Source: Epilithonimonas zeae (GTDB lineage Bacteria > Bacteroidota > Bacteroidia > Flavobacteriales > Weeksellaceae). From it: a stretch of 64,000 nucleotides of DNA. How positions within the stretch are numbered: position 1 is the stretch's first letter; every line of letters begins with the position of its first letter. Location of the stretch: contig NZ_FSRK01000001.1 in the NCBI RefSeq assembly GCF_900141765.1, positions 806,001 to 870,000 of the forward strand, read 5' to 3'. Below are positions 19,017-28,522 of this stretch, piece after piece. The notes beneath the pieces are model-generated. The model was not told the origin of the DNA. It was given only the letters and a program-made list of their open reading frames with translations, and ran no database searches. The position numbers were made by a program, and so were the translations under genes.

Positions 19017-20879
19017 TTAGTTTTCCATTTTCTTAATAACTTTCAACAGATCAACACCTTTTCCCAAAACACCTTTAAAAAGATCACCTTTTTCTTTCAA
19101 TCTTTCCAAAGAATTATAAATATTAAAATCAGTGGGTTTTAGTCCATTTTTTACTTCTTCCCATTCCAAAGGCATCGAAACGGTTGCTCCTTTTTTTGGC
19201 CTCAAGCTGTAAACACTTGCCAAAGTCTGTCCACGACGGTTTTGCAGATAATCCAAATAGATTTTATTCTTATCTCGTTTCTGAAGACTTCTTTCCAGCG
19301 TTGTTAAATCTGGTAATTTCTGCTGAACCATTTGCATCAGAAGATGTCCAAAATCCTTGACTTGCTCGTAGGAATATTTTGCATTCATTGGGATATAAAC
19401 GTGGATTCCAGAGCTTCCTGAAGTTTTGGGATAACCTTCAATTCCTGCTAAATCCAAAACTTCTTTAACTACCTGAGCCGTTTCTATTACATCTTCGAAC
19501 GTATTTTTTTCGGATGGGTCTAGGTCAAGAACCAAGTAATCCGGATTGTCTGCTTTTTGGATTTTACTTGTCCAGATATTCAACTCGATACAGCCGAGAT
19601 TGTTGAGGTAGGCTAAGGTTTCTTTATCATTACAGATGATGTAATTGATATATTTATCTGAACTTTCTGAGAAAACTTTTTGTGTTTCTATCCAATCGGG
19701 TGTTTCTTCAGAAGCATCTTTTTGGAAAAAACTCATTCCATCGATTCCATTGGGATAGCGGTTCATAGATTGTGGCCGATTTTTAAGATGAGGCAAAATA
19801 TACTTCGAAATACTTTGATAATAATCAATCACATCCCCTTTTGTCACATCATCGTCGGGAAAATAGATTTTATTTTGATTCGTCAGCTTCAATTCCTGTT
19901 TTCCAATTTTCTTTATCAAATCCTCTTTTCCTGTTCTTTTTTTAGGTTCGGCTTTTTTCATAATTTCTTTTTTTGATTGATTTTCAGAATTGAATTCAAC
20001 ATCTTTTGGTTCAATATCATCACGAAGTCTGAGAAAAATCGGATGACGGTAAACATGGTCTTTTGTCAGTTCTGTAAATTTAATTTCGGCAATTAATTTG
20101 GGTTTTATCCAAGTAGCTTTGGTATTGGTTTTTGGTGTGATTTTGAAAACAGATTTCGAAGTGATGAGCGGTTGCATTTTATCATACATTTCAGAAAGTG
20201 ACTTATCTTTAAAACCACCTCCGGTATGACCACAAAACACCATTTCACCGTTCAGATATTTTCCTAAAATCAAAGCGCCAAATTTTTTCCGTGAGCCTTT
20301 TGGTTCGGTAAATCCACAAATAATAGCTTCATCACTTTTATGGATTTTGATTTTCAGCCATTCAGAACTTCTTAGATTTTCCTTGTAAAGACTTTCAGTT
20401 TTCTTGGCAACAATTCCTTCCAATCCCAAATCTTTTGCGGCTTGGAAAAATTCTTTTCCGTTTTGTAAAATATGGTCACTGTATTTGATGATTTCATTTT
20501 CCACCAAAGCATCTTTCAACAATTCTTTTCTTTGCAGATAAGAAAGATTTTCGGTCGAATGACCGTTCAGCCATAGTAAATCAAAAACCTGAAAAGTCAA
20601 TGCTAGATTAGGATTGTCGCCAATCTGTTGAAGCCATTGGAAATTAGGCTTTCCTTTGTCATCATAAGCCACGATTTCCCCGTCAAGAACCATATTGTGT
20701 TCCTGCAACTTGAGCGAATTGGTTACTTTTTTAAATTTCTGAGAAAAATCGATCCCGTTTCTGGAGTACAATCGGATTTCGTCTTTGCTCAGATCTGCAA
20801 TCGCGCGATAACCGTCCCATTTGATTTCGAATGCCCAGTCTTTATCATCAAAGGCTTTGTCTGAGATTTTGCAAAGCAT
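19017..20879 (-). CDS. ligD: LigD ligase and polymerase domains (downstream part of split ligD)
   Basis: 620 codons from the first Met, encoding the ATP-dependent ligase domain (EIKWDGYR with nucleotidyl Lys at residue 20, VLDGEIVA, LEGIVAKK, WLKIKIHK) and then the primase-like polymerase domain (IYFPDDDVTKGDVIDYY, LDLDPS with catalytic aspartates, TSGSSGIHVYIP). The frame is open further upstream, reading SEGIKSFKNYAPSLSGAKK up to an A10 tract at 20965-20974, where it would continue from the upstream phosphoesterase frame after a +1 (or -2) change. The product fills gaps and seals double-strand breaks with Ku. Whether the fragment is translated alone from this Met is unclear. Confidence 0.88.
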   Translation of the reverse strand: MLCKISDKAFDDKDWAFEIKWDGYRAIADLSKDEIRLYSRNGIDFSQKFKKVTNSLKLQEHNMVLDGEIVAYDDKGKPNFQWLQQIGDNPNLALTFQVFDLLWLNGHSTENLSYLQRKELLKDALVENEIIKYSDHILQNGKEFFQAAKDLGLEGIVAKKTESLYKENLRSSEWLKIKIHKSDEAIICGFTEPKGSRKKFGALILGKYLNGEMVFCGHTGGGFKDKSLSEMYDKMQPLITSKSVFKITPKTNTKATWIKPKLIAEIKFTELTKDHVYRHPIFLRLRDDIEPKDVEFNSENQSKKEIMKKAEPKKRTGKEDLIKKIGKQELKLTNQNKIYFPDDDVTKGDVIDYYQSISKYILPHLKNRPQSMNRYPNGIDGMSFFQKDASEETPDWIETQKVFSESSDKYINYIICNDKETLAYLNNLGCIELNIWTSKIQKADNPDYLVLDLDPSEKNTFEDVIETAQVVKEVLDLAGIEGYPKTSGSSGIHVYIPMNAKYSYEQVKDFGHLLMQMVQQKLPDLTTLERSLQKRDKNKIYLDYLQNRRGQTLASVYSLRPKKGATVSMPLEWEEVKNGLKPTDFNIYNSLERLKEKGDLFKGVLGKGVDLLKVIKKMEN

Positions 20880-20944
20880 TGGCTTAATGAATTCCGAAAG
20901 TTTTTTTGCACCGGAAAGAGAAGGCGCATAATTTTTAAAGGACT

Positions 20945-21556
20945 TTATTCCTTCGGATGCGTTATTTTTTTTTTACCGTCTTTCTCAGCAAGATAAGCGG
21001 TTACTTTGGAAGTTTTGAGTGTATGTTCTTCAGCGTCATAATCGTCATCCACAGCGTATTTATCTTTATGTTTGATGAGCAGCCACGCATTATCATCTTT
21101 AGGATTTTTAATTTTCACCAATGCAAATTCGCCTTTCAGCTTTTTACCGTGGAGAATAAATTTTAAAGATTGTTTATGTAATTCAGCCCGCATTACCAAA
21201 TCATCGCTTTTTCCTGATACTTTTTCTATCGGCTCGTAAGTTCCTTCATCCCAAATCTCTACTTCACCAGCGCCATAATTACCTTTCGGAATAGAACCTT
21301 CGAAAGTTCTGTAAGAATAAGGATGATCTTCCACCATCATTGCCAATCGCTTGTCAGAAGGATTAAGTGAAGGACCTTTCGGAACTGCCCAACTCTTCAG
21401 AACGCCTTCCATTTCCAAACGAAAATCGTAGTGAAGTCGAGAAGCAGCATGTCTCTGAATCACGAATTTCAATTTCTTTCCACTAGCTTTTTCTTTTCCT
21501 TCTGGTTCAGCTGTTTGCTTGAAATTCCTTTTTTTATTATAATCCTCGAGTGCCAT
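20945..21556 (-). CDS. ligD: LigD 3'-phosphoesterase domain (upstream part of split ligD)
   Basis: 203 residues. QRHAASRLHYDFRLE (residues 34-48), VPKGPSL, MMVEDHPYSYRTFEGSIPKGNYGAG and EIWDEGTYEP are the phosphoesterase domain signatures that hold the metal-binding His and Asp. In Bacteroidota this domain is normally the N-terminus of an about 850-residue PE-Lig-Pol LigD. Here it ends 9 codons after an A10 tract with KKKITHPKE; inserting one A at the tract joins it to the ligase frame, giving about 846 residues. It follows ku by 59 bp. Confidence 0.88.
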   Translation of the reverse strand: MALEDYNKKRNFKQTAEPEGKEKASGKKLKFVIQRHAASRLHYDFRLEMEGVLKSWAVPKGPSLNPSDKRLAMMVEDHPYSYRTFEGSIPKGNYGAGEVEIWDEGTYEPIEKVSGKSDDLVMRAELHKQSLKFILHGKKLKGEFALVKIKNPKDDNAWLLIKHKDKYAVDDDYDAEEHTLKTSKVTAYLAEKDGKKKITHPKE

Positions 21557-21615
21557 AACTTATAAGTGATAATTGATGAATGATAGTTGATTTTTTTCTT
21601 TTTTCTTAGTTGTTC

Positions 21616-22395
21616 CTAACCAACTTTTTTCTTTCCTTTCTCCAAACTGGCTTTTAGCATTGCCATCAAATCAGTTGTCTTTCCTTCCGGTTCTTTTACT
21701 TCCGTCAACTTAATTTTTTTGCCTTTAGCTTTTTGCTTGATGATTTTCAGAAGGTCTGCGTTGTAAGTATCTTTATATTTTGATGGGTCAAATTCAGTAG
21801 CAAGAGATTTAATAAGTTGTTCCGCCATTTTCAATTCGGCAGGTTTTGGAGCACTTCCGGATGGGATTTTCAGATCTTCAAAAGCTCGCATTTCTTCCGG
21901 ATAACGCATTCTGTTGACCATTAGGATTTTATCCTCGTAAGGTCTTATCAGACAAAGAATTTCCCTTTCTCTCAAAACAAAAGAACCAATTCCTGCCATT
22001 TTTGTTTTGATTAAGGATTTTAATAATAATTTATAAGCCGCTTCACCATTTTTCTGAGGTTCAAGGAAGTAAGGTGTTTCAAAAAGTGCCGTATCCACTT
22101 CAGATTCTTTGACAAATTGATTGATACTAAGAATCTTTGATTTCTCAGGACTTGCCGCAGCAAAATCCTCATCTTCCAAAACGATATATTTGTCCTCGAT
22201 TTTAAAGCCTTTCACAATATTTTCCCAAACCACTTCTTTTCCAGTATTGGCATTAACTCTTTTGAATTTGATATTACTCAAATCCTTGCTGTCTAGCATA
22301 TCCAAATCTAAGGTACTAGAATCTGTGGCCGAATATAATTTGATAGGAATATTGACTAATCCAAAACCGATTGCACCGTTCCAAATAGCTCTCAT
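21616..22395 (-). CDS. ku: Ku protein of bacterial non-homologous end joining
   Basis: 259 residues. Opening MRAIWNGAIGFGLVNIPIKLY, central FKRVNANTGKEVVWENIVKGF and YFLEPQKNGEAAYKLL are typical of bacterial Ku homodimers that encircle DNA ends and recruit LigD. The C-terminus is basic (KGKKIKLTEVKE, KGKKKVG), as expected for DNA retention and LigD contact. It is first in the ku-ligD operon. Confidence 0.95.
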   Translation of the reverse strand: MRAIWNGAIGFGLVNIPIKLYSATDSSTLDLDMLDSKDLSNIKFKRVNANTGKEVVWENIVKGFKIEDKYIVLEDEDFAAASPEKSKILSINQFVKESEVDTALFETPYFLEPQKNGEAAYKLLLKSLIKTKMAGIGSFVLREREILCLIRPYEDKILMVNRMRYPEEMRAFEDLKIPSGSAPKPAELKMAEQLIKSLATEFDPSKYKDTYNADLLKIIKQKAKGKKIKLTEVKEPEGKTTDLMAMLKASLEKGKKKVG

Positions 22396-22497: not shown

Positions 22498-22541
22498 GTG
22501 ACTCAAATCATAAACCACTTGTGTCCTTCTCTCTAACTTTA
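22498..22541 (+). promoter_or_regulatory. Crp/Fnr-type operator with -7 box, site 1
   Basis: GTGACTCAAATCAT at 22498-22511, then exactly 22 bp to TAACTTTA (22534-22541), one base off TAnnTTTG. No -33 TTTG is present. It lies 24 bp upstream of the small lipoprotein start at 22565. Confidence 0.6.
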
Positions 22542-22564
22542 GTCTTACCAAAAATAAAAATTTT

Positions 22565-22801
22565 ATGAAAAAGTTAATCTTCGTCTCGGTAATTATGCTA
22601 GTGTTCAGTTGCAAAGACAACAAATCTCAAGAGAACTATAGGTCGGATTCTCTTTCCGTTGCTAATGGCCAAAATGATTCTTTATCAACCTCTTCTTCAA
22701 CAGATAGTACTACGACTCCAGGCATTAGCAATCTCAATTCCAGTAAAACAAATCCAAGTGATAGTCTTTCTAGAAGAAAAGATTCTGTGAGAAGACGTTA
22801 G
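22565..22801 (+). CDS. small Ser/Asp-rich lipoprotein
   Basis: 78 residues; signal peptide MKKLIFVSVIMLVFSC gives a lipobox Cys at residue 16. The mature part is low-complexity Ser/Thr/Asp/Asn (SLSTSSSTDSTTTP) ending in SRRKDSVRRR, a basic tail. No domain recognised. The operator at 22498 suggests control by the nearby Crp-family regulators. Confidence 0.6.
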   Translation: MKKLIFVSVIMLVFSCKDNKSQENYRSDSLSVANGQNDSLSTSSSTDSTTTPGISNLNSSKTNPSDSLSRRKDSVRRR

Positions 22802-22864
22802 TTTAAATAAGATTTTTCAACCCAATAGATTGACAATCGATTATTAACAGATAGCCTTATTAGT

Positions 22865-22924
22865 ACGCCCAATTATTATTTTCAAATCGTAGGGGGCGAA
22901 GTCAAACTTAATAATGATAAATGA
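22865..22924 (+). pseudogene. relic of a third Crp-like regulator
   Basis: Nineteen codons reading TPNYYFQIVGGEVKLNND before a stop. They align with TPLYYYQIIEGDVKLNNY of the intact regulator at 23827, residues about 29-46, with 13 of 18 positions identical. Nothing on either side is recognisable as the rest, so this is a short remnant of a duplicated or lost paralogue. Confidence 0.6.
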
Positions 22925-22940
22925 TAAGGTTCAGTGGCAA

Positions 22941-23282
22941 TTAAAGAAATAGGGCAGTTGCAGGTCTTCCAGCGTTATTCAGACATTTCAATGGATTCTT
23001 GTTTGGTTGATTTGGATATTCGTTCACTTGATGTCGCTCATTAATATCCGAAACAAAATCACAATCTTCTTCACCTGGCTGAATTTCTACATCACCAAAG
23101 ACCAGCCATTGCGAATGATAATTGATCTCTCCAAAAAGTAATTCAAATAAACATTAATTATGTTTATAAAAGTCTATACATCGGTCAACAATTTTATTTT
23201 GGTTAATGTAAAGCATATTGTTTGGATCAATCCATGTAATTCTAATCGCGGATGTAAGTTCATTCTTGACACTGGAGTCCAT
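22941..23282 (-). pseudogene. gene interrupted by one in-frame TAA
   Basis: From ATG 23282 the frame reads MDSSVKNELTSAIRITWID and so on for 42 codons to TAA at 23154-23156, then stays open in the same frame for 70 more codons (FELLFGEINYHSQWLVFGD, IQPGEEDCDFVSDINERHQ, ending GRPATALFL). Composition is protein-like on both sides of the stop, so a single nonsense change in a 113-codon gene is the simplest reading. The family is not recognised. Confidence 0.55.
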
Positions 23283-23486
23283 TGAATTTTATAGAAGATT
23301 ATGTGTTTTGTTACAGCAGATAATTTGTTAGGTAAGTACTTTTTCTGATTGTTTTGTTTAGCTTTTTTGCAGTATTAGGATTATAAAATTTTAAATCAAA
23401 ACCATTTATTATTATCAAATTTCACTGTTTTTATAGTTTATTGTTAGTTTGGTGTTGTGACATTTATTTATTTTAATAATTTCATT

Positions 23487-23530
23487 ATGACTCAAGTCAT
23501 AAAATTCTTTAGAAGTTCTGTATAATTTTG
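23487..23530 (+). promoter_or_regulatory. Crp/Fnr-type operator with -7 box, site 2
   Basis: Perfect dyad ATGACT-CA-AGTCAT at 23487-23500, 22 bp spacing, then TAATTTTG at 23523-23530, a full match to TAnnTTTG. The 30-codon ORF starts 20 bp further on. Confidence 0.7.
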
Positions 23531-23550
23531 AGCTCAACAAAAAATAGACT

Positions 23551-23643
23551 ATGAAACTATTATCCTTAATTTTTACAATGGGATTAATTCAAAAAATTAA
23601 TCCCATTGATGATGCTTTGTTATTGCCATTAACAGGCAAATAA
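23551..23643 (+). CDS. 30-aa putative peptide under the operator
   Basis: Reading frame of 30 codons, MKLLSLIFTMGLIQKINPID and then DALLLPLTGK, 20 bp after a perfect -7 box. The N-terminus is hydrophobic with an early Lys like a short signal or membrane peptide. An exact 13-bp inverted repeat lies inside it (23577-23607), so the locus may act as RNA instead of, or as well as, coding. No family recognised. Confidence 0.4.
   Translation: MKLLSLIFTMGLIQKINPIDDALLLPLTGK
23577..23607. repeat. perfect 13-bp inverted repeat
   Basis: Arms AATGGGATTAATT (23577-23589) and its exact complement (23595-23607) with a 5-nt loop CAAAA. No T-run follows, so it is not a standard terminator. Confidence 0.85.
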
Positions 23644-23826
23644 TACCAATATTTTAAAAAGATTTTATTAAGACTAAAATGGGTTTAGTTATGTAAGAAT
23701 CTGTGAAATTTTGCGAAATTAAAATTAAGTAAGATAATAAAAGATAAATAGATTATTTCAATTAATTAATTGATTTAAAGTGGTTTAAAGGTTGGTGTGA
23801 TTCTTTAAATTACGAGAGAGTAAAAT

Positions 23827-24423
23827 ATGGTTATAGAAGAAACTATTATAAAATCATTAGGAGCAAAAGCCGAGGAATACAATATCGGTGATGTTATTTT
23901 TTCAGAAGGTGGTACACCATTGTATTATTATCAGATCATCGAGGGTGATGTGAAGCTTAATAATTACAACGAGGATGGAAAGGAAATGATACAAAGTATT
24001 TTGACGGCGGGTCAAAGTATCGGTGAGTTTTTACTTTTTGTGGATAAAACTTACCCTGTCAACGCTATCGCTATTTCGCCTTGCAGAGTTCTGAAATTAT
24101 CTAAATCCAAGTTTCTTCTTCTGTTGGAAAATTATCCCGAGTTTCATTTTGATATCATCCAAAGTCTTTCGGATGCGATGTACTTCAAATTCGTGATGGG
24201 ACAGATTTTTTCTACTCAGAATACTTCAACAAAATTAAAAGCTTTGATGGATTACTTAAAAAGCTTCCAGAAAGATCAGACTCCTTTCTCTTTTCAGATT
24301 CCATTGACCAGACAACAGATGGCGAGTCTCACAGGTTTGCGTGTAGAGACAACAATTAGGACTTTAAAGCAGATGGAAAAGGATAACGTTGTAAAAATAA
24401 AAAACCGTAAAATTTTATATTAA
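23827..24423 (+). CDS. Crp/Fnr family transcriptional regulator A
   Basis: 198 residues: cyclic-nucleotide-binding-type beta-roll (about 15-120; GDVIFSEGGTP, YYYQIIEGDVKLNNYNEDGKE, SIGEFLLF) and C-terminal winged helix with recognition region LTRQQMASLTGLRVETTIRTLK. The phosphate-binding RS signature of cAMP-binding Crp is not evident and no cysteine cluster of FNR type is present, so the signal is unknown. It is a paralogue of the convergent gene at 24432; the recognition segments are nearly identical, so both should read the same operator. The two stops are 8 bp apart. Confidence 0.9.
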   Translation: MVIEETIIKSLGAKAEEYNIGDVIFSEGGTPLYYYQIIEGDVKLNNYNEDGKEMIQSILTAGQSIGEFLLFVDKTYPVNAIAISPCRVLKLSKSKFLLLLENYPEFHFDIIQSLSDAMYFKFVMGQIFSTQNTSTKLKALMDYLKSFQKDQTPFSFQIPLTRQQMASLTGLRVETTIRTLKQMEKDNVVKIKNRKILY

Positions 24424-24431
24424 TTTCTTAA

Positions 24432-25028
24432 TCAATAATAAATTTTCCCTTGAACAATCTTCACTACATTTTGCTTTTCCAAAACCTTGATTGTTCGTAT
24501 TGTCGTTTCTACTCTAAGACCAGTTAAGGACGCTAATTGCTGTCTTGTTAAAGGAATTTCGTAGGAATATCGGTCTGTATCTGAAGAAAAACTTTTATGA
24601 TAATCAAATACTCCTAACAATCTCACATCGGGATGCAATGAGGAGTTATTTTCGAGCATTATGAATTTCTGATAAAGCCTTTCTGATAAAAATTTATTGA
24701 GATCTCGTGATACATCGGGGTTTTCATCCAGCATTTTAACAAAGTTTGATTTCGAAAGTTTGATAACTTCACTCGGTTCAAAAACTATGGCATTCACAGG
24801 ATAAGTTTTATCTATGAAGAGCAGTAATTCGCAAACGCTGAGACCGTGATGTAAAATAGCCAAAATCAGTTCTTTTCCTTCTTCATTGTAGTGATTCAGT
24901 TTTATTCTTCCGGAAATAATTTGATAATAGTATTTCGGTTTTTCACCTTCTCGGAAAATGATATCTCCGGCTTCGTAATATTCGATTTTTGCACCATAGG
25001 ATAGTAGCAGATCTTCAGCAATTATCAT
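24432..25028 (-). CDS. Crp/Fnr family transcriptional regulator B
   Basis: 198 residues, same layout as regulator A: GDIIFREGEKPKYYYQIISG, IKLNHYNEEGKEL, LLLFIDKTYPVNAI, and recognition region LTRQQLASLTGLRVETTIRTIK. The regions DKTYPVNAI and TGLRVETTIRT are shared exactly with A; effector-domain differences (HHGLSVCELL against TAGQSIGEFL) suggest different signals. A TAAGTTTG -7 box is visible on the minus strand about 35 bp upstream of the start. Tail-to-tail arrangement with A points to duplication followed by inversion. Confidence 0.9.
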   Translation of the reverse strand: MIIAEDLLLSYGAKIEYYEAGDIIFREGEKPKYYYQIISGRIKLNHYNEEGKELILAILHHGLSVCELLLFIDKTYPVNAIVFEPSEVIKLSKSNFVKMLDENPDVSRDLNKFLSERLYQKFIMLENNSSLHPDVRLLGVFDYHKSFSSDTDRYSYEIPLTRQQLASLTGLRVETTIRTIKVLEKQNVVKIVQGKIYY

Positions 25029-25130
25029 AATGTTAATTTTATATTGTTACAATAATTTCTGTATACAAACTTAAAACCAATTTTTAGAATTGATAATTTT
25101 ATAGAGTTTAATAGAGTTTTTAAAGGCTTT

Positions 25131-25175
25131 ATGATTCAAATCATATAATGACAGAAGTCAGTTTGCGTAGCTTTG
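25131..25175 (+). promoter_or_regulatory. Crp/Fnr-type operator with -7 box, site 3
   Basis: Perfect dyad ATGATT-CA-AATCAT at 25131-25144 (contains TGAT-N4-ATCA, the FNR core), 23 bp spacing, then TAGCTTTG at 25168-25175. It fixes the start of the next gene at 25205, because the earlier in-frame ATG at 25148 would lie upstream of the transcript start. Confidence 0.7.
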
Positions 25176-25204
25176 GTTTAATCCAAATCAAAAAAGAAGC
25201 AAAA

Positions 25205-25504
25205 ATGAATATTGAAAAACTATTAAAATCATTACCTGGTTATGACTTTAAAAAATTGATCAATAAAAGTCAGAAGTTTGAACCGGGATCTACCATTTAT
25301 GCAAAAGAAATAGAGAATGAGATTTTTCTTCTTTTCGTGGTTTTAAAAGATGAAAGCCCCAAAGATATCCATTCTTTCATTGCTTATTTTGACAGCTTTG
25401 AACACATCGGAGTCCAGGAACCAAAGGAAATAATGTTTTATCAATTGATATCCAAAATTCAGGATTTTCATTATTTCGAGAAATATCTAAATGTTCATCA
25501 TTAA
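25205..25504 (+). CDS. hypothetical 99-aa protein of the Crp-controlled unit
   Basis: MNIEKLLKSLPGYDFKKLI at the start, then a mixed alpha/beta sequence with IFLLFVVLKDE and SFIAYFDSFEHIG and a C-terminal HYFEKYLNVHH. No signal peptide and no known motif. A frame extension to 25148 exists but precedes the predicted transcript start. The CinA-domain gene begins 78 bp downstream and is probably co-transcribed. Confidence 0.6.
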   Translation: MNIEKLLKSLPGYDFKKLINKSQKFEPGSTIYAKEIENEIFLLFVVLKDESPKDIHSFIAYFDSFEHIGVQEPKEIMFYQLISKIQDFHYFEKYLNVHH

Positions 25505-25582
25505 TAATCAACCGGAAAAGTAAAACTGTTGGACCGAAGTTATAAGGTTCTTTTATCCAATAACATTTAAAAAATTTAACTT

Positions 25583-26089
25583 ATGGAATTTCCTAAAATA
25601 CTATTGGACAAAATCAGCTATAATCTGAGAGAAAGAAACGAGTCCATCTCCATGGCAGAAAGCGTTACATCAGGATTTTTGCAATTAGCGTTTTCTCAAA
25701 TGCCAAGTGCGGAACAATTTTTCAAAGGCGGAATTACAGCCTACACAATCGAGGAAAAAGTCAAACATCTGAATATCGATTTTGATGAAGCGCAAGCAAC
25801 AAACTGCGTCTCCAGAAACATCAGCGAGATGATGGCTCTTAATATCGCTTCGTTATTCGATTCTGACTGGTCGATTGCTACAACCGGTTATGCCACGCCG
25901 GTAAAAGAATCCGATAATCAGATATTTGCTTATTACTGCATCGCTTATCAAGGAACAATTATCAGAAGTGATAAAATAGAACTTCATCCGTTGACTAAGG
26001 CGTTTGATGCTCAGAAATACTTTATGGAGTACATTTTGGGATGTCTCCGTTGCGAGGTCAAAAGAAACCATTCTAAAATTACAATTTAA
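25583..26089 (+). CDS. CinA C-terminal domain protein (nicotinamide-nucleotide amidohydrolase family)
   Basis: 168 residues with the stand-alone CinA/PncC layout: MAESVTSGFLQLAFSQMPSAEQFFKGGITAYTIEEK spread over residues 24-59 and WSIATTGYATP in the second half. Family members deamidate NMN to nicotinic acid mononucleotide in pyridine nucleotide salvage. The usual AESLTGG loop is altered to AESVTSG, so activity should not be assumed. The location in a putative stress regulon fits. Confidence 0.8.
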   Translation: MEFPKILLDKISYNLRERNESISMAESVTSGFLQLAFSQMPSAEQFFKGGITAYTIEEKVKHLNIDFDEAQATNCVSRNISEMMALNIASLFDSDWSIATTGYATPVKESDNQIFAYYCIAYQGTIIRSDKIELHPLTKAFDAQKYFMEYILGCLRCEVKRNHSKITI

Positions 26090-26135
26090 TTTTATCCACT
26101 GTAAAAATGATGCAAAAACCATTAAATAAAATTAT

Positions 26136-26435
26136 ATGGTTGGGGAATATTTTACAGTTAAAAAACAAATCTGTTTTATTTCGGGAGCGGAAAGTGGTAT
26201 CGGAAAAGCGGTTGCATTACCACATGTATTTTATCCGGGTTTGTTCGAGGTAGAATATATTGATAAAAATGCCGAGGTCGAAGATGAAAAGATTATAATG
26301 GCTGTAGCATCTATTGTTCTCCTTTCGATTGGGTTAAGACAAAAAGGTTCACCAGATTCCAAACTTGTCGATATGACTCGCAACGAAACGCCTTGGTGTG
26401 TTTTATTGAGCGAAATTTCTCTCGGTTTTATTTAG
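26136..26435 (+). pseudogene. short-chain dehydrogenase relic in a chimeric frame
   Basis: The 99-codon frame opens with KKQICFISGAESGIGKAVA, the TGxxxGIG nucleotide-binding loop of short-chain dehydrogenases, but the following residues lose the family pattern, and the rest (IIMAVASIVLLSIGLRQKG, then MTRNETPWCVLLSEISLGFI) looks unrelated. An overlapping frame from 26107 gives a plausible amino terminus (MMQKPLNKIIWLGN) that dies at 26250. The locus is best read as decayed DNA from two sources; translation is possible but no enzyme would result. Confidence 0.45.
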
Positions 26436-26591
26436 AAGTTGTTTAAAAAATGACTTGTAATGTGTTATGTTTAATAATTAATGATTTAAATTGATTATAA
26501 TTTATCTATATTGTAATATTATTAATTTATTTTGGTATAATGATTGCAATAATTAATTTATTCACATTAATCAATACTAAAAATAAAAATT

Positions 26592-27167
26592 ATGGCAACT
26601 ACAAAATCAGCAACAGCTGCAAAAACAAAGACTGCTGCGAAAAGTACAACTACAACCAAAAAAACACCTGCTAAAAAAGATGCGGCTAAAGATTTAAGCG
26701 ATCTTTTCGAAGATAGCTTAAAAGATATCTATTGGGCAGAAAAAGCATTAGTAAAAGCCTTACCAAAAATGATGAAGAATGCAACCAATGAAAAATTGAA
26801 AGCCGCTATCGAAAAGCATTTGGCTGAGACAGAAACACACGTTACTCGTCTGGAAGAGATTTTCGAATCTATGGGAAAAAAAGCACAGGCAAAAAAATGC
26901 GACGCAATGCAAGGTTTATTAGATGAAGCGGACAGCATTGTGGAAGAAACAGAACCAGGAACAGTGAGAGATGCAGGAATCATTGCAGCAGCGCAGAAAG
27001 TGGAGCATTACGAGATTGCTACTTATGGAACATTGGCGGCGTTTGCTAAAATTTTAAAAGAATCTGCTCCGATGAAAAATTTGCTTAAAACATTGGAAGA
27101 AGAGAAAACCTGTGATGAGTCTTTGACACAGCTTGCAGACGTTAATCTTAATTCTAAAGCAAAATAA
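26592..27167 (+). CDS. DUF892 ferritin-like stress protein (YciE/YciF family) with basic tail
   Basis: 191 residues. Residues about 1-33 are a Lys/Ala/Thr tail (TAAKTKTAAKSTTTTKKTPAKKDAAK) like histone H1 tails in composition. The remainder is the DUF892 four-helix bundle: LSDLFEDSLKDIYWAEKAL, KHLAETETHVTRLEEIF, KVEHYEIATYGTLAAFA carrying the Glu/His di-iron-type ligands, and EEEKTCDESLTQLA. Homologues are general-stress proteins of unproven activity. The tail suggests DNA association in the manner of Dps (inference). Confidence 0.88.
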   Translation: MATTKSATAAKTKTAAKSTTTTKKTPAKKDAAKDLSDLFEDSLKDIYWAEKALVKALPKMMKNATNEKLKAAIEKHLAETETHVTRLEEIFESMGKKAQAKKCDAMQGLLDEADSIVEETEPGTVRDAGIIAAAQKVEHYEIATYGTLAAFAKILKESAPMKNLLKTLEEEKTCDESLTQLADVNLNSKAK

Positions 27168-27217
27168 TCGACACATAGACTTGGAAACGTTAAACGAATT
27201 AATCAATTTTACAACTT

Positions 27218-27613
27218 ATGGAAGTGCAAGAACTTAGACTTTACAATCTGCTTCAGTATGAAAATGATGTAGTGCCAGTAGTTGGGCTCAATCTTGCGAA
27301 GGACAAAAATCTTTCCTTAGTTCAGATTCAGCAAGGTAATTCCAAGATTCCTGTACATTCACAACAACTAAAACCAATTCGCCTTACCAGCGAGTGGCTT
27401 TCCAAATTTGGTTTCAAGGAAAGTTATCGCTCAAATTCCAGAATCCGATACGACTTACCCAACTTTGGAAAGTATGATTTTGACCTTTCGAAAGATAAAA
27501 TTCTTGAGGGATTTTTATACTTCGGAAATTATATTCGATGTCATTATATACATCAGTTGCAAAATCTTCATTTTGTACTGACAGGAAAAGAATTAAAAGT
27601 GGAGAGCAATTGA
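27218..27613 (+). CDS. Bacteroidota-type short protein ending in [15 protein letters not shown]
   Basis: 131 residues. The pattern ELRLYNLLQYE, PIRLTSEWLSKFGFKES and [18 protein letters not shown] matches a widespread uncharacterised Bacteroidota family often seen in mobile or accessory regions, recognised by its YxHQLQNLYFxLTGEEL ending. Cytoplasmic, no catalytic motif. Its stop codon lies within the following terminator hairpin. Confidence 0.7.
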   Translation: MEVQELRLYNLLQYENDVVPVVGLNLAKDKNLSLVQIQQGNSKIPVHSQQLKPIRLTSEWLSKFGFKESYRSNSRIRYDLPNFGKYDFDLSKDKILEGFLYFGNYIRCHYIHQLQNLHFVLTGKELKVESN

Positions 27614-27630
27614 TTGCTCTCTTCTTTTTC
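27602..27630 (+). terminator. intrinsic terminator
   Basis: Nine-bp stem GAGAGCAAT / ATTGCTCTC with a 2-nt apparent loop (7-bp stem in practice) followed by CTTCTTTTTC; overlaps the stop of the 131-aa gene. Confidence 0.75.
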
Positions 27631-27637
27631 ATTTGAC

Positions 27638-27681
27638 ACGGCTCAAATCATAAACCAAGATTGGTGTAATTTTTAGATTTG
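27638..27681 (+). promoter_or_regulatory. Crp/Fnr-type operator with -7 box, site 4
   Basis: ACGGCTCAAATCAT at 27638-27651 (right arm intact, left arm degenerate), 22 bp spacing, then TAGATTTG at 27674-27681, a full -7 match. The run CTCAAATCATAAACCA is shared with site 1. It drives the frameshifted lipoprotein at 27701. Confidence 0.6.
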
Positions 27682-27700: not shown

Positions 27701-27893
27701 ATGAAAAAATTGGAATGATTTTTATCCTTGTATTACTATCTGGCTGTTCAAAGAATAATGATTTCTCAGATTCTAATGATTCGGATAGTTTTATATAGAC
27801 GGGCTGAATTATTATGATGCAGTTAAAGTTTTGGTAAATGACAGTTTAATTTATAAAAAATATCTGCGCATCAACTTTTTAAAAAGAAAATAA
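27701..27893 (+). pseudogene. frameshifted small lipoprotein gene
   Basis: ATG 27701 is followed by A6 and stops after 5 codons, but with one extra A the text becomes MKK-IGMIFILVLLSGCSKNN, a clean lipoprotein signal. That frame stops at TAG after DSDSFI; a third frame then gives GLNYYDAVKVLVNDSLIYKK to a TAA at 27891-27893. Two lesions therefore separate three protein-like pieces of an about 63-residue product. It sits 19 bp after a full -7 box. Confidence 0.55.
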
Positions 27894-27910: not shown

Positions 27911-28522
27911 ATGAAACCTAAGAAAGTACCAGGCGTTCCGGAGCATTACAAAGGAGCTCATTTCGATACAGAAAGTGATCGGGTTTTGGATGATCCGATT
28001 CTTGCGGCTCAGCAATTCCAATTTCTTAAAGAGCGTTTTTTCAATATCAATAACTGGCAAGAATACTGTGGAAAGATGTCTGCGGAATTCAAACTTTGTG
28101 ATAAACACGGTTTTTATGTAGATAGAATGCCGAGAGTGGGCGATTTTTTAAGAATTGATATTCCCGGTCCTGGCAATCCACAAACCAAAGGTTATGATTG
28201 GGTAGAGATTGTTGCTATGGATGATCATTGTTTTGGTGATGAATTAGAACGGCATTTGATTTCCTGCAGACCATCAAAACCACCTGGCAGCAGGAGCGAC
28301 AATATTGCACATTTTTATTCTCCAGAATCTTCATCAACATTCATTATTTCAAGAGGACCGAATTATATTAAGGTTGGAATTTATGGAAGGAATGAAATTG
28401 CTAATTTTTCCAGAACCGGAATTATTGGTAAGATACGAAACGCTTTCATCACAATCGGAGGATTTTTGAGGGTTACAAAATTCCAGTGGAAAGGTCTTGC
28501 AGAAGGTTTTCTTGATTTTTAG
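27911..28522 (+). CDS. hypothetical cytoplasmic protein, 203 aa
   Basis: Starts MKPKKVPGVPEHYKGAHFD. The middle is rich in charged and aromatic residues (GFYVDRMPRVGDFLRIDIPG, YDWVEIVAMDD), then SRGPNYIKVGIYGRNEIANF. No signal peptide or membrane segment. I do not recognise a family; codon use is like the neighbours and the gene is complete. Confidence 0.65.
   Translation: MKPKKVPGVPEHYKGAHFDTESDRVLDDPILAAQQFQFLKERFFNINNWQEYCGKMSAEFKLCDKHGFYVDRMPRVGDFLRIDIPGPGNPQTKGYDWVEIVAMDDHCFGDELERHLISCRPSKPPGSRSDNIAHFYSPESSSTFIISRGPNYIKVGIYGRNEIANFSRTGIIGKIRNAFITIGGFLRVTKFQWKGLAEGFLDF

Follow-up and report, generated by a model that had tools for sequence, protein, structure and literature searches.

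An FNR-like operator at a fixed distance from the -7 box marks a putative class II regulon of Crp/FNR-superfamily proteins in Epilithonimonas zeae

A 64-kb stretch of the 4.08-Mb genome of Epilithonimonas zeae (contig NZ_FSRK01000001.1, here C1, positions 806001-870000; hereafter the window) contains four promoters in which a 14-bp FNR-like dyad, the operator, lies 22 or 23 bp upstream of a -7 box of the form TAnnTTTG, close to two genes, crp1 and crp2, for proteins of the Crp/FNR superfamily. Comparison of this arrangement with the rest of the genome and with related genomes makes it highly likely that these are class II, activator-dependent sigmaA promoters belonging to a single regulon under the control of a type-1 protein of this superfamily, the type to which crp1 belongs. 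A dimer of the type-1 protein (crp1 or its paralogues) would bind rTGAy-YCAR-rTCATAA, centred at about -41.5 where 22 bp separate the site from the box (gap 22) or at -42.5 where 23 bp do (gap 23), and once bound it would replace the missing -33 element and help RNA polymerase to open the TAnnTTTG box. Crp1 would activate its own gene, and the further putative targets are small lipoproteins, an operon for a 99-aa (amino acid) protein and a CinA-domain protein, catalase HPII, a 203-aa protein, an acidic protein and a small RNA.

The operators and boxes are set out in Table 1. All four sites reported in the first-pass annotation are present on direct reading, the left arm of the last being degenerate as described there; the four boxes likewise lie at the positions it gave, only the second and third having been listed in swapped order, and the distances from the end of the site to the box are 22, 22, 23 and 22 bp for operators 1-4 in order. 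Three of the boxes match TAnnTTTG exactly and one in seven of eight letters. In the interval 17-23 bp upstream of each box there is no TTTG, and at most two of its four letters are matched, so that the reported lack of a -33 TTTG in all four promoters is also confirmed.

Table 1. Operators, boxes, regulators, putative targets and related features; positions are those of the window unless prefixed C1.
Feature	Position	Strand	Remarks
Operator 1, GTGACTCAAATCAT	22498-22511	+	Read from sequence; orthologue in relative G022 has an exact box
-7 box of operator 1, TAACTTTA	22534-22541	+	7/8 letters as TAnnTTTG; gap 22
Operator 2, ATGACTCAAGTCAT	23487-23500	+	In front of crp1; kept upstream of crp1 orthologues
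-7 box of operator 2, TAATTTTG	23523-23530	+	Exact; gap 22
Operator 3, ATGATTCAAATCAT	25131-25144	+	Read from sequence
-7 box of operator 3, TAGCTTTG	25168-25175	+	Exact; gap 23
Operator 4, ACGGCTCAAATCAT	27638-27651	+	Left arm degenerate; G022 orthologue has a standard left arm
-7 box of operator 4, TAGATTTG	27674-27681	+	Exact; gap 22
Second dyad, TGACAGAAGTCA	25149-25160	+	17 bp downstream of operator 3; overlaps core promoter
crp1, type-1 Crp/FNR-superfamily regulator	23827-24423	+	198 aa; PF00027 and PF13545; tree; recognition helix TGLRVETTIRTLK
crp2, type-2 paralogue	24432-25028	-	198 aa; tail-to-tail with crp1; recognition helix TGLRVETTIRTIK
Small Ser/Thr/Asp-rich lipoprotein-like open reading frame (ORF), putative target	22565-22801	+	78 aa; no Pfam match above cut-off
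99-aa protein of unknown function, putative target	25205-25504	+	Within the genus only in genomes with the Crp1 family
CinA/PncC-domain protein, putative target	25583-26089	+	168 aa; domain match
Very short lipoprotein-like ORF, putative target	27715-27798	+	27 codons; by eye
203-aa protein of unknown function, putative target	27911-28522	+	Operator before other copies in genomes with the Crp1 family
Deletion scar ORF	26136-26435	+	Pieces of SDR, GH13 and DUF6766 genes
Cluster B promoters	C1:1531060, 1532555, 1539482, 1540772, 1541666, 1547996		Within C1:1531-1548 kb

The tight form of the motif is far more frequent than base composition would predict. Measured against 40 second-order Markov simulations of the 64-kb window, the exact 14-mer occurs three times where the mean per simulated window is 0.05, and the exact operator followed by its box at gap 22 or 23 occurs twice, against none in the simulations. 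The whole genome contains six exact 14-mers, three of them in the window; one of the three outside it, at C1:1216893, is followed by a box, which the other two lack at gaps of 20-25 bp even when one mismatch is allowed. The complete pattern, TGAYNNNNRTCAT followed by 22 bp and TANNTTTG, matches this genome exactly at four places (one in the window, one at C1:1216893 and two near C1:1540 kb), its reversed control at none. When TGAYNNNRRTCATAA is searched alone there are 19 matches against 4 in the control, palindromes being counted twice; those with a box in register fall in the window, in a second, paralogous cluster (cluster B) or at C1:1216893, and no such box was found at the remaining matches in this genome. 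With both gaps admitted and the imperfect sites 1 and 4 included, the genome has 11 such promoters, four in the window, six in cluster B and one at C1:1216893, and the proposal of a purely local regulon has accordingly to be given up: cluster B and C1:1216893 share the promoter type. A weaker candidate lies at C3:335868 before a gene that, by eye, is oxidoreductase-like.

The scan of the genome and its relatives suggested in the first-pass annotation was extended to 23 genomes of the genus, of which 17 encode proteins like Crp1 (E up to 1e-30; Crp+ genomes) and six do not (Crp- genomes). A search for the box preceded at any gap of 10-34 bp by the dyad gave 230 matches, and 10 in the control; spacing was analysed in 150 of these that were listed, from 12 of the 17 Crp+ and four of the six Crp- genomes, with the genome of the window set aside. 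Among the matches listed from Crp+ genomes, gap 22 accounts for 38 of 129 and gap 23 for 26 (together 64/129), every other gap for 11 rows at most, so that distances to the box peak at 22-23 bp instead of being random, an outcome that favours the first-pass proposal, which named random distances as its refutation. By eye, several of the smaller peaks are one orthologous promoter repeated; the same is true of some gap-23 rows of the TGACTTTTATCAT type, which may not belong to the set. The central TCAA, described at first as invariant, is not so beyond the four window sites: over the 38 listed gap-22 sites positions 5-8 are, in order, T in 20 and C in 16; C in 26; A in 23; and A in 23 or G in 15, giving a centre like YCAR, and the cluster B sites have the centres TCCG, TGAT, GGAA, TGCG, GTGC and TCCC.

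Class II activators bind with their centre near -41.5. In the available part of PMC9723704 the sigmaA box of Flavobacterium psychrophilum is placed at -12 to -5, which would put the centre of the dyad at -41.5 for gap 22 and at -42.5 for gap 23. With the position of the box thus borrowed from another species, the sequence comparison supports the class II geometry proposed earlier, in that a centre at about -41.5, a constant distance to the box and a poor -33 region are found together.

Within the genus, the site pattern and its tie to the Crp1 family are well supported by comparison of sequences. The exact site with gap 22 and box occurs 58 times in the Crp+ genomes, at least once in each of the 17, and once in one of the six Crp- genomes (Mann-Whitney p 2.5e-4), the reversed control giving none; the number of Crp proteins and the number of sites per genome are correlated (Spearman 0.79, uncorrected for phylogeny). 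When about 3.6 kb was examined at each of 30 loci with a Crp homologue, the promoter was present in 26, and in 18 of these it preceded the Crp gene on the same strand by no more than 500 bp. Comparisons of the same gene between genomes, allowing one mismatch in the box, point the same way. The operator precedes katE in 8 of 18 Crp+ rows (at a distance of up to 133 bp in seven and of 462 bp in one) and in neither of two Crp- rows, the count being made without G017, one of 21 high-identity KatE rows, which has no gene start, and without the shorter catalases at 45-46%; it precedes the gene for the 203-aa protein in 8 of 14 Crp+ rows, the window's own copy set aside, and in none of five Crp- rows; and it precedes DUF892 in 3 of 23 and none of six, respectively. 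No operator was found upstream of katE in G012, of DUF892 in G020 or of the N-terminal part of katE on G020:C1. In three relatives (G005, G009 and G022) the operator is followed by a lipoprotein gene and then by katE. These results favour the earlier proposal that the sites and the neighbouring Crp-family genes form one regulon.

Both crp1 and crp2 encode members of the Crp/FNR superfamily, with PF00027 and PF13545 above cut-off in each. Crp1 is 86% identical to a protein of Epilithonimonas arachidiradicis, and its structural model (predicted local distance difference test, pLDDT, 89; predicted template-modelling score, pTM, 0.62) matches CAP structures with a template-modelling score of about 0.55. 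The genome has seven Crp paralogues. In a tree of 60 proteins from the loci examined, crp2 and its cluster B counterpart fall in a type-2 clade of 19 rows with support 100/99, outside which lie crp1 and the type-1 proteins of cluster B; gene coordinates show that type-1 and type-2 genes are often adjacent, as they are in the window. The N-terminal cysteine cluster of FNR carries [4Fe-4S], while in CRP R82 is the Arg of the phosphate cassette and R180 makes the TGTGA-type contact. No cysteine cluster was found in the seven paralogues, which have one to three unclustered Cys each, and the Fnr model scores crp1 at 36.6 bits against a cut-off of 228, so that these are not FNR proper. The best NCBIfam score of both window proteins is to CRP, at 60.8 and 61.7 bits, far from CRP proper with its equivalog cut-off of 266, and neither crp1 nor crp2 reaches any NCBIfam cut-off. 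The cassette reads YPVNA in four of the seven paralogues and SPVNA, YPFTA or YSVSA in the others; a CRP-type Arg is absent from it in crp1 and crp2, and among the seven only B3 has an Arg just before the cassette. The activating signal is probably neither cyclic AMP nor an Fe-S cluster. The recognition helix, parsed in 57 of the 60 proteins (three were not parsed), has Glu at the equivalent of CRP E181 in 56 of 57 and Arg at that of R185 in 53 of 57; the equivalent of R180 is replaced in the Crp homologues, by Val in both crp1 and crp2. A recognition-helix rule set out in the available part of PMC1274295 associates replacement of R180 with TGA, not TGTGA, half-sites, so retention of Glu and Arg together with replacement of R180 predicts the TGA half-sites that are observed.

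That the regulon contains its own regulators, as first suggested, holds for crp1, which lies behind its own operator; facing crp2, no box was found in the window with up to one mismatch at gaps of 20-25 bp. In two relatives, G010 and G015 (L158 8838-8849 and L161 5564-5575), a single palindromic operator stands between a divergent lipoprotein gene and a type-2 Crp gene, the box facing the Crp gene, which is of the cluster B kind, having one mismatch. The leader of crp1 (window 23552-23650) has a conserved start, TARACTATGAA, after which the sequence differs from one relative to another, with a leader length of about 120-300 nt; a 30-codon ORF after the crp1 promoter was rejected as a gene, only its first bases being conserved in the relatives aligned. 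At two loci (L094 and L095, in G072 and G087), whose Crp homologues are distant and belong to another family, the promoter comes directly after the Crp gene; by eye, what it leads to is a small protein that looks membrane-like and, in L095, also a globin-like protein.

Several observations weigh against the reading of these sites as one type-1 regulon. In the window itself the box of operator 1 and one arm of operator 4 are imperfect, and the 14-mer with up to three mismatches is not enriched (64 found, 73.9 expected), so that only the tight form is meaningful. In the whole genome, the operator-gap 22-box pattern with one mismatch gives 9 matches against 2 in the control, and the narrower TCAA form with three mismatches 23 against 6. 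Crp- genomes contribute no gap-22 and four gap-23 cases among the 21 matches listed from them, and the difference in site counts between Crp+ and Crp- genomes is uncorrected for phylogeny. The operator stands at just 19 of 55 rows of the three tested target genes in Crp+ genomes, and Ku was rejected as a target, being present in 21 of 21 good-quality genomes of the genus regardless of Crp content. In 48 other genomes of the family there is no link: nine Crp+ genomes have 26 hits and 39 Crp- genomes 40, with two in the control (p 0.11), and a family-wide link between motif and Crp was rejected as not significant, the probable cause being that this geometry also serves other Crp/FNR proteins outside the genus. 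Finally, binding, activation, the assignment of paralogues to sites and the stress function are predictions made from sequence.

Three other explanations of the sites have to be set beside this one. The dyads might be repressor sites that block the -33 region, with which they do overlap, and the second dyad of some gap-23 promoters lies over the core promoter, a typical place for a repressor. Repressor sites, however, tolerate varied positions, whereas the gaps here peak at 22-23 bp, and the four window promoters should be weak without an activator because they have no -33 element; we regard repression from the main sites as very improbable. If instead the sites served a different Crp/FNR protein, such as a sensor of oxygen or nitric oxide, crp1 and crp2 would be incidental, and this would fit both the 40 matches of the same geometry in family genomes without the Crp1 family and the globin-like and cytochrome-like genes that, by eye, adjoin some distant homologues. 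Yet the six Crp- genomes of the genus, with 4 to 10 first-look candidates each, have one site in all, and the promoters stand beside Crp genes at 26 of the 30 Crp loci examined, which makes this account very improbable. Chance, or the base composition of an AT-rich genome, is compatible with the behaviour of the loose motif and can be given practically no credence when exact forms stand so far above simulation and reversed controls are empty across the genus.

Class II activation by a type-1 protein remains the preferred reading. A further feature of some gap-23 promoters is a second dyad like TGAYAAATGTCA, which lies downstream of the first at an offset of exactly 17 bp, with 7 bp between it and the box. 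The genes concerned are the 99-aa/CinA operon and that of the acidic protein (MNTRNS...). Among 30 listed gap-23 sites of the genus a second dyad (at least 7/8 letters) occurs at +17 in five and at no other offset, where shuffling of the gaps yields 0.06 on average and at most 2; the 38 listed gap-22 sites include one with a dyad at +17 and another with a dyad at +22. At the loci examined it accompanies 7 of 32 gap-23 sites and 1 of 79 gap-22 sites (L102, 7/8), the listed and the locus-based gap-23 sites being overlapping sets. A dimer bound there, with its centre at about -25.5, should block polymerase, and repression from the second dyad, perhaps by the type-2 protein, may follow. It is tempting to propose that type-1 and type-2 proteins compete or heterodimerise, one of them activating at -41.5/-42.5 and the other, or both when abundant, repressing from the second dyad, in which case the acidic-protein and 99-aa/CinA promoters would be those repressed. 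The recurrence of type-1/type-2 neighbours, with the type-2 clade firmly separated, and the confinement of the second dyad to +17 among the listed gap-23 sites both speak for such a switch. The seven cases in which the genes were read, on the other hand, come from two gene families and one decayed locus, and two listed gap-22 sites also have a dyad; the proposal is offered tentatively, as possible and rather short of an even chance.

The genes served by these promoters are of several kinds. The 99-aa protein of the window is found in 9 of 17 Crp+ and none of six Crp- genomes of the genus. Putative targets in cluster B are catalase HPII (1041.7 bits, just below the cut-off of 1102), a Crp paralogue, the acidic protein, lipoprotein-like ORFs and a second operon, 98-aa/CinA; the products of neighbouring genes include DUF892, DUF2383, NDH-2, SDRs, a GH13 enzyme, a FAD/Rieske enzyme and DUF6766. 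Relatives add a CheY-like protein and DUF892, and the DUF892 gene at 26592 in the window has no operator of its own. The promoter at C1:1216893 (L135 1501-1650) leads into about 94 nt without an ORF, ending in a terminator-like stem and a run of T. This candidate RNA is kept in G022 and G005, and in the three sequences compared it folds better than shuffles (z -3.7 to -4.7) and has a terminator-like stem; no Rfam match was found in the copies scanned, the G005 copy lying outside the scan. Genes for Ku and a LigD-like protein (window 19017-22395) adjoin the cluster, and operator 1 faces away from Ku. Taken together, catalase HPII, CinA/PncC, the lipoproteins and, in some relatives, DUF892 suggest a stress regulon. 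Stress survival would be the most likely purpose of the regulon, a role that we put, from gene content, at about an even chance.

The locus in the window seems to have decayed. Crp1 of G022 is 96% identical to that of the window, and operators 1 and 2 are 10.2 kb apart in G022 and 1 kb apart here; between them, at 22865-22915, all that is left of a third Crp-family gene, of type 1, is a short piece 71% identical to Crp1 over 17 aa. The SDR, GH13 and DUF6766 genes whose pieces make up the scar ORF (Table 1) have near-full-length matches at the corresponding place in G022, and also in cluster B. From these remnants, clusters A (that of the window) and B look like two copies of one island, with losses that are in part complementary.

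To our knowledge, few activator regulons of Bacteroidota have been described with their promoter geometry, and no RpoS- or EcfG-type stress sigma factor is known to us in these bacteria. No description of the present regulon was found in the titles and opening lines of abstracts of the Creative Commons-licensed PMC papers listed, the range covered, subscription papers lying outside it. New here are the recurrence of type-1/type-2 regulator pairs and the second dyad 17 bp downstream in some gap-23 promoters. A precise rule (dyad, 22-23 bp, TAnnTTTG) is tied, within the genus, to an identified protein family; it suggests how a Crp/FNR protein may take the place of the -33 element, and is a candidate, open to experiment, for the way in which stress genes are co-ordinated without a stress sigma factor like RpoS or EcfG, while the 17-bp tandem operator and the paired paralogues make a concrete activator/antagonist hypothesis. 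One may speculate further, though we think it unlikely, that the Weeksellaceae have built a general-stress-type response from a duplicated Crp/FNR-like pair, not from a stress sigma factor, with a tandem-operator on/off switch (type-1 at -41.5; type-2 or excess type-1 at about -25.5) and a small RNA.

Among known systems, the class II promoters of Escherichia coli FNR and Pseudomonas DNR are alike in having a 14-bp dyad (TTGATnnnnATCAA for FNR/DNR, in the available part of PMC1274295), Glu and Arg in the recognition helix and a centre near -41.5; they differ from those described here, in which the outer base is mostly A and not T, the centre prefers YCAR, the protein has no cysteine cluster, the -7 box is of the Bacteroidota type and the targets look like genes of stress, not of respiration. 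CRP/CAP provides the best-scoring solved structures by sequence and fold and the best NCBIfam score, but those scores are far below cut-off, the half-site here is TGA and not TGTGA, and crp1 and crp2 have no R82-type Arg. HcpR, which also belongs to the Crp/FNR proteins, lies next to its own target in Bacteroides, whereas the HcpR2 site is GTAACnnnnGTTAC and the regulon there consists of hcp alone in most species (both according to the available part of PMC1274295). The closest functional analogue may be the EcfG general stress regulon of Alphaproteobacteria, whose cargo is of a similar type in including catalases; for Sphingopyxis, the available part of PMC7083833 names catalases and ku-ligD among the targets of EcfG, and it is on this resemblance that the working label of stress regulon is based. 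EcfG regulons, unlike the present one, are driven by an alternative sigma factor, and ku is here not tied to the regulon.

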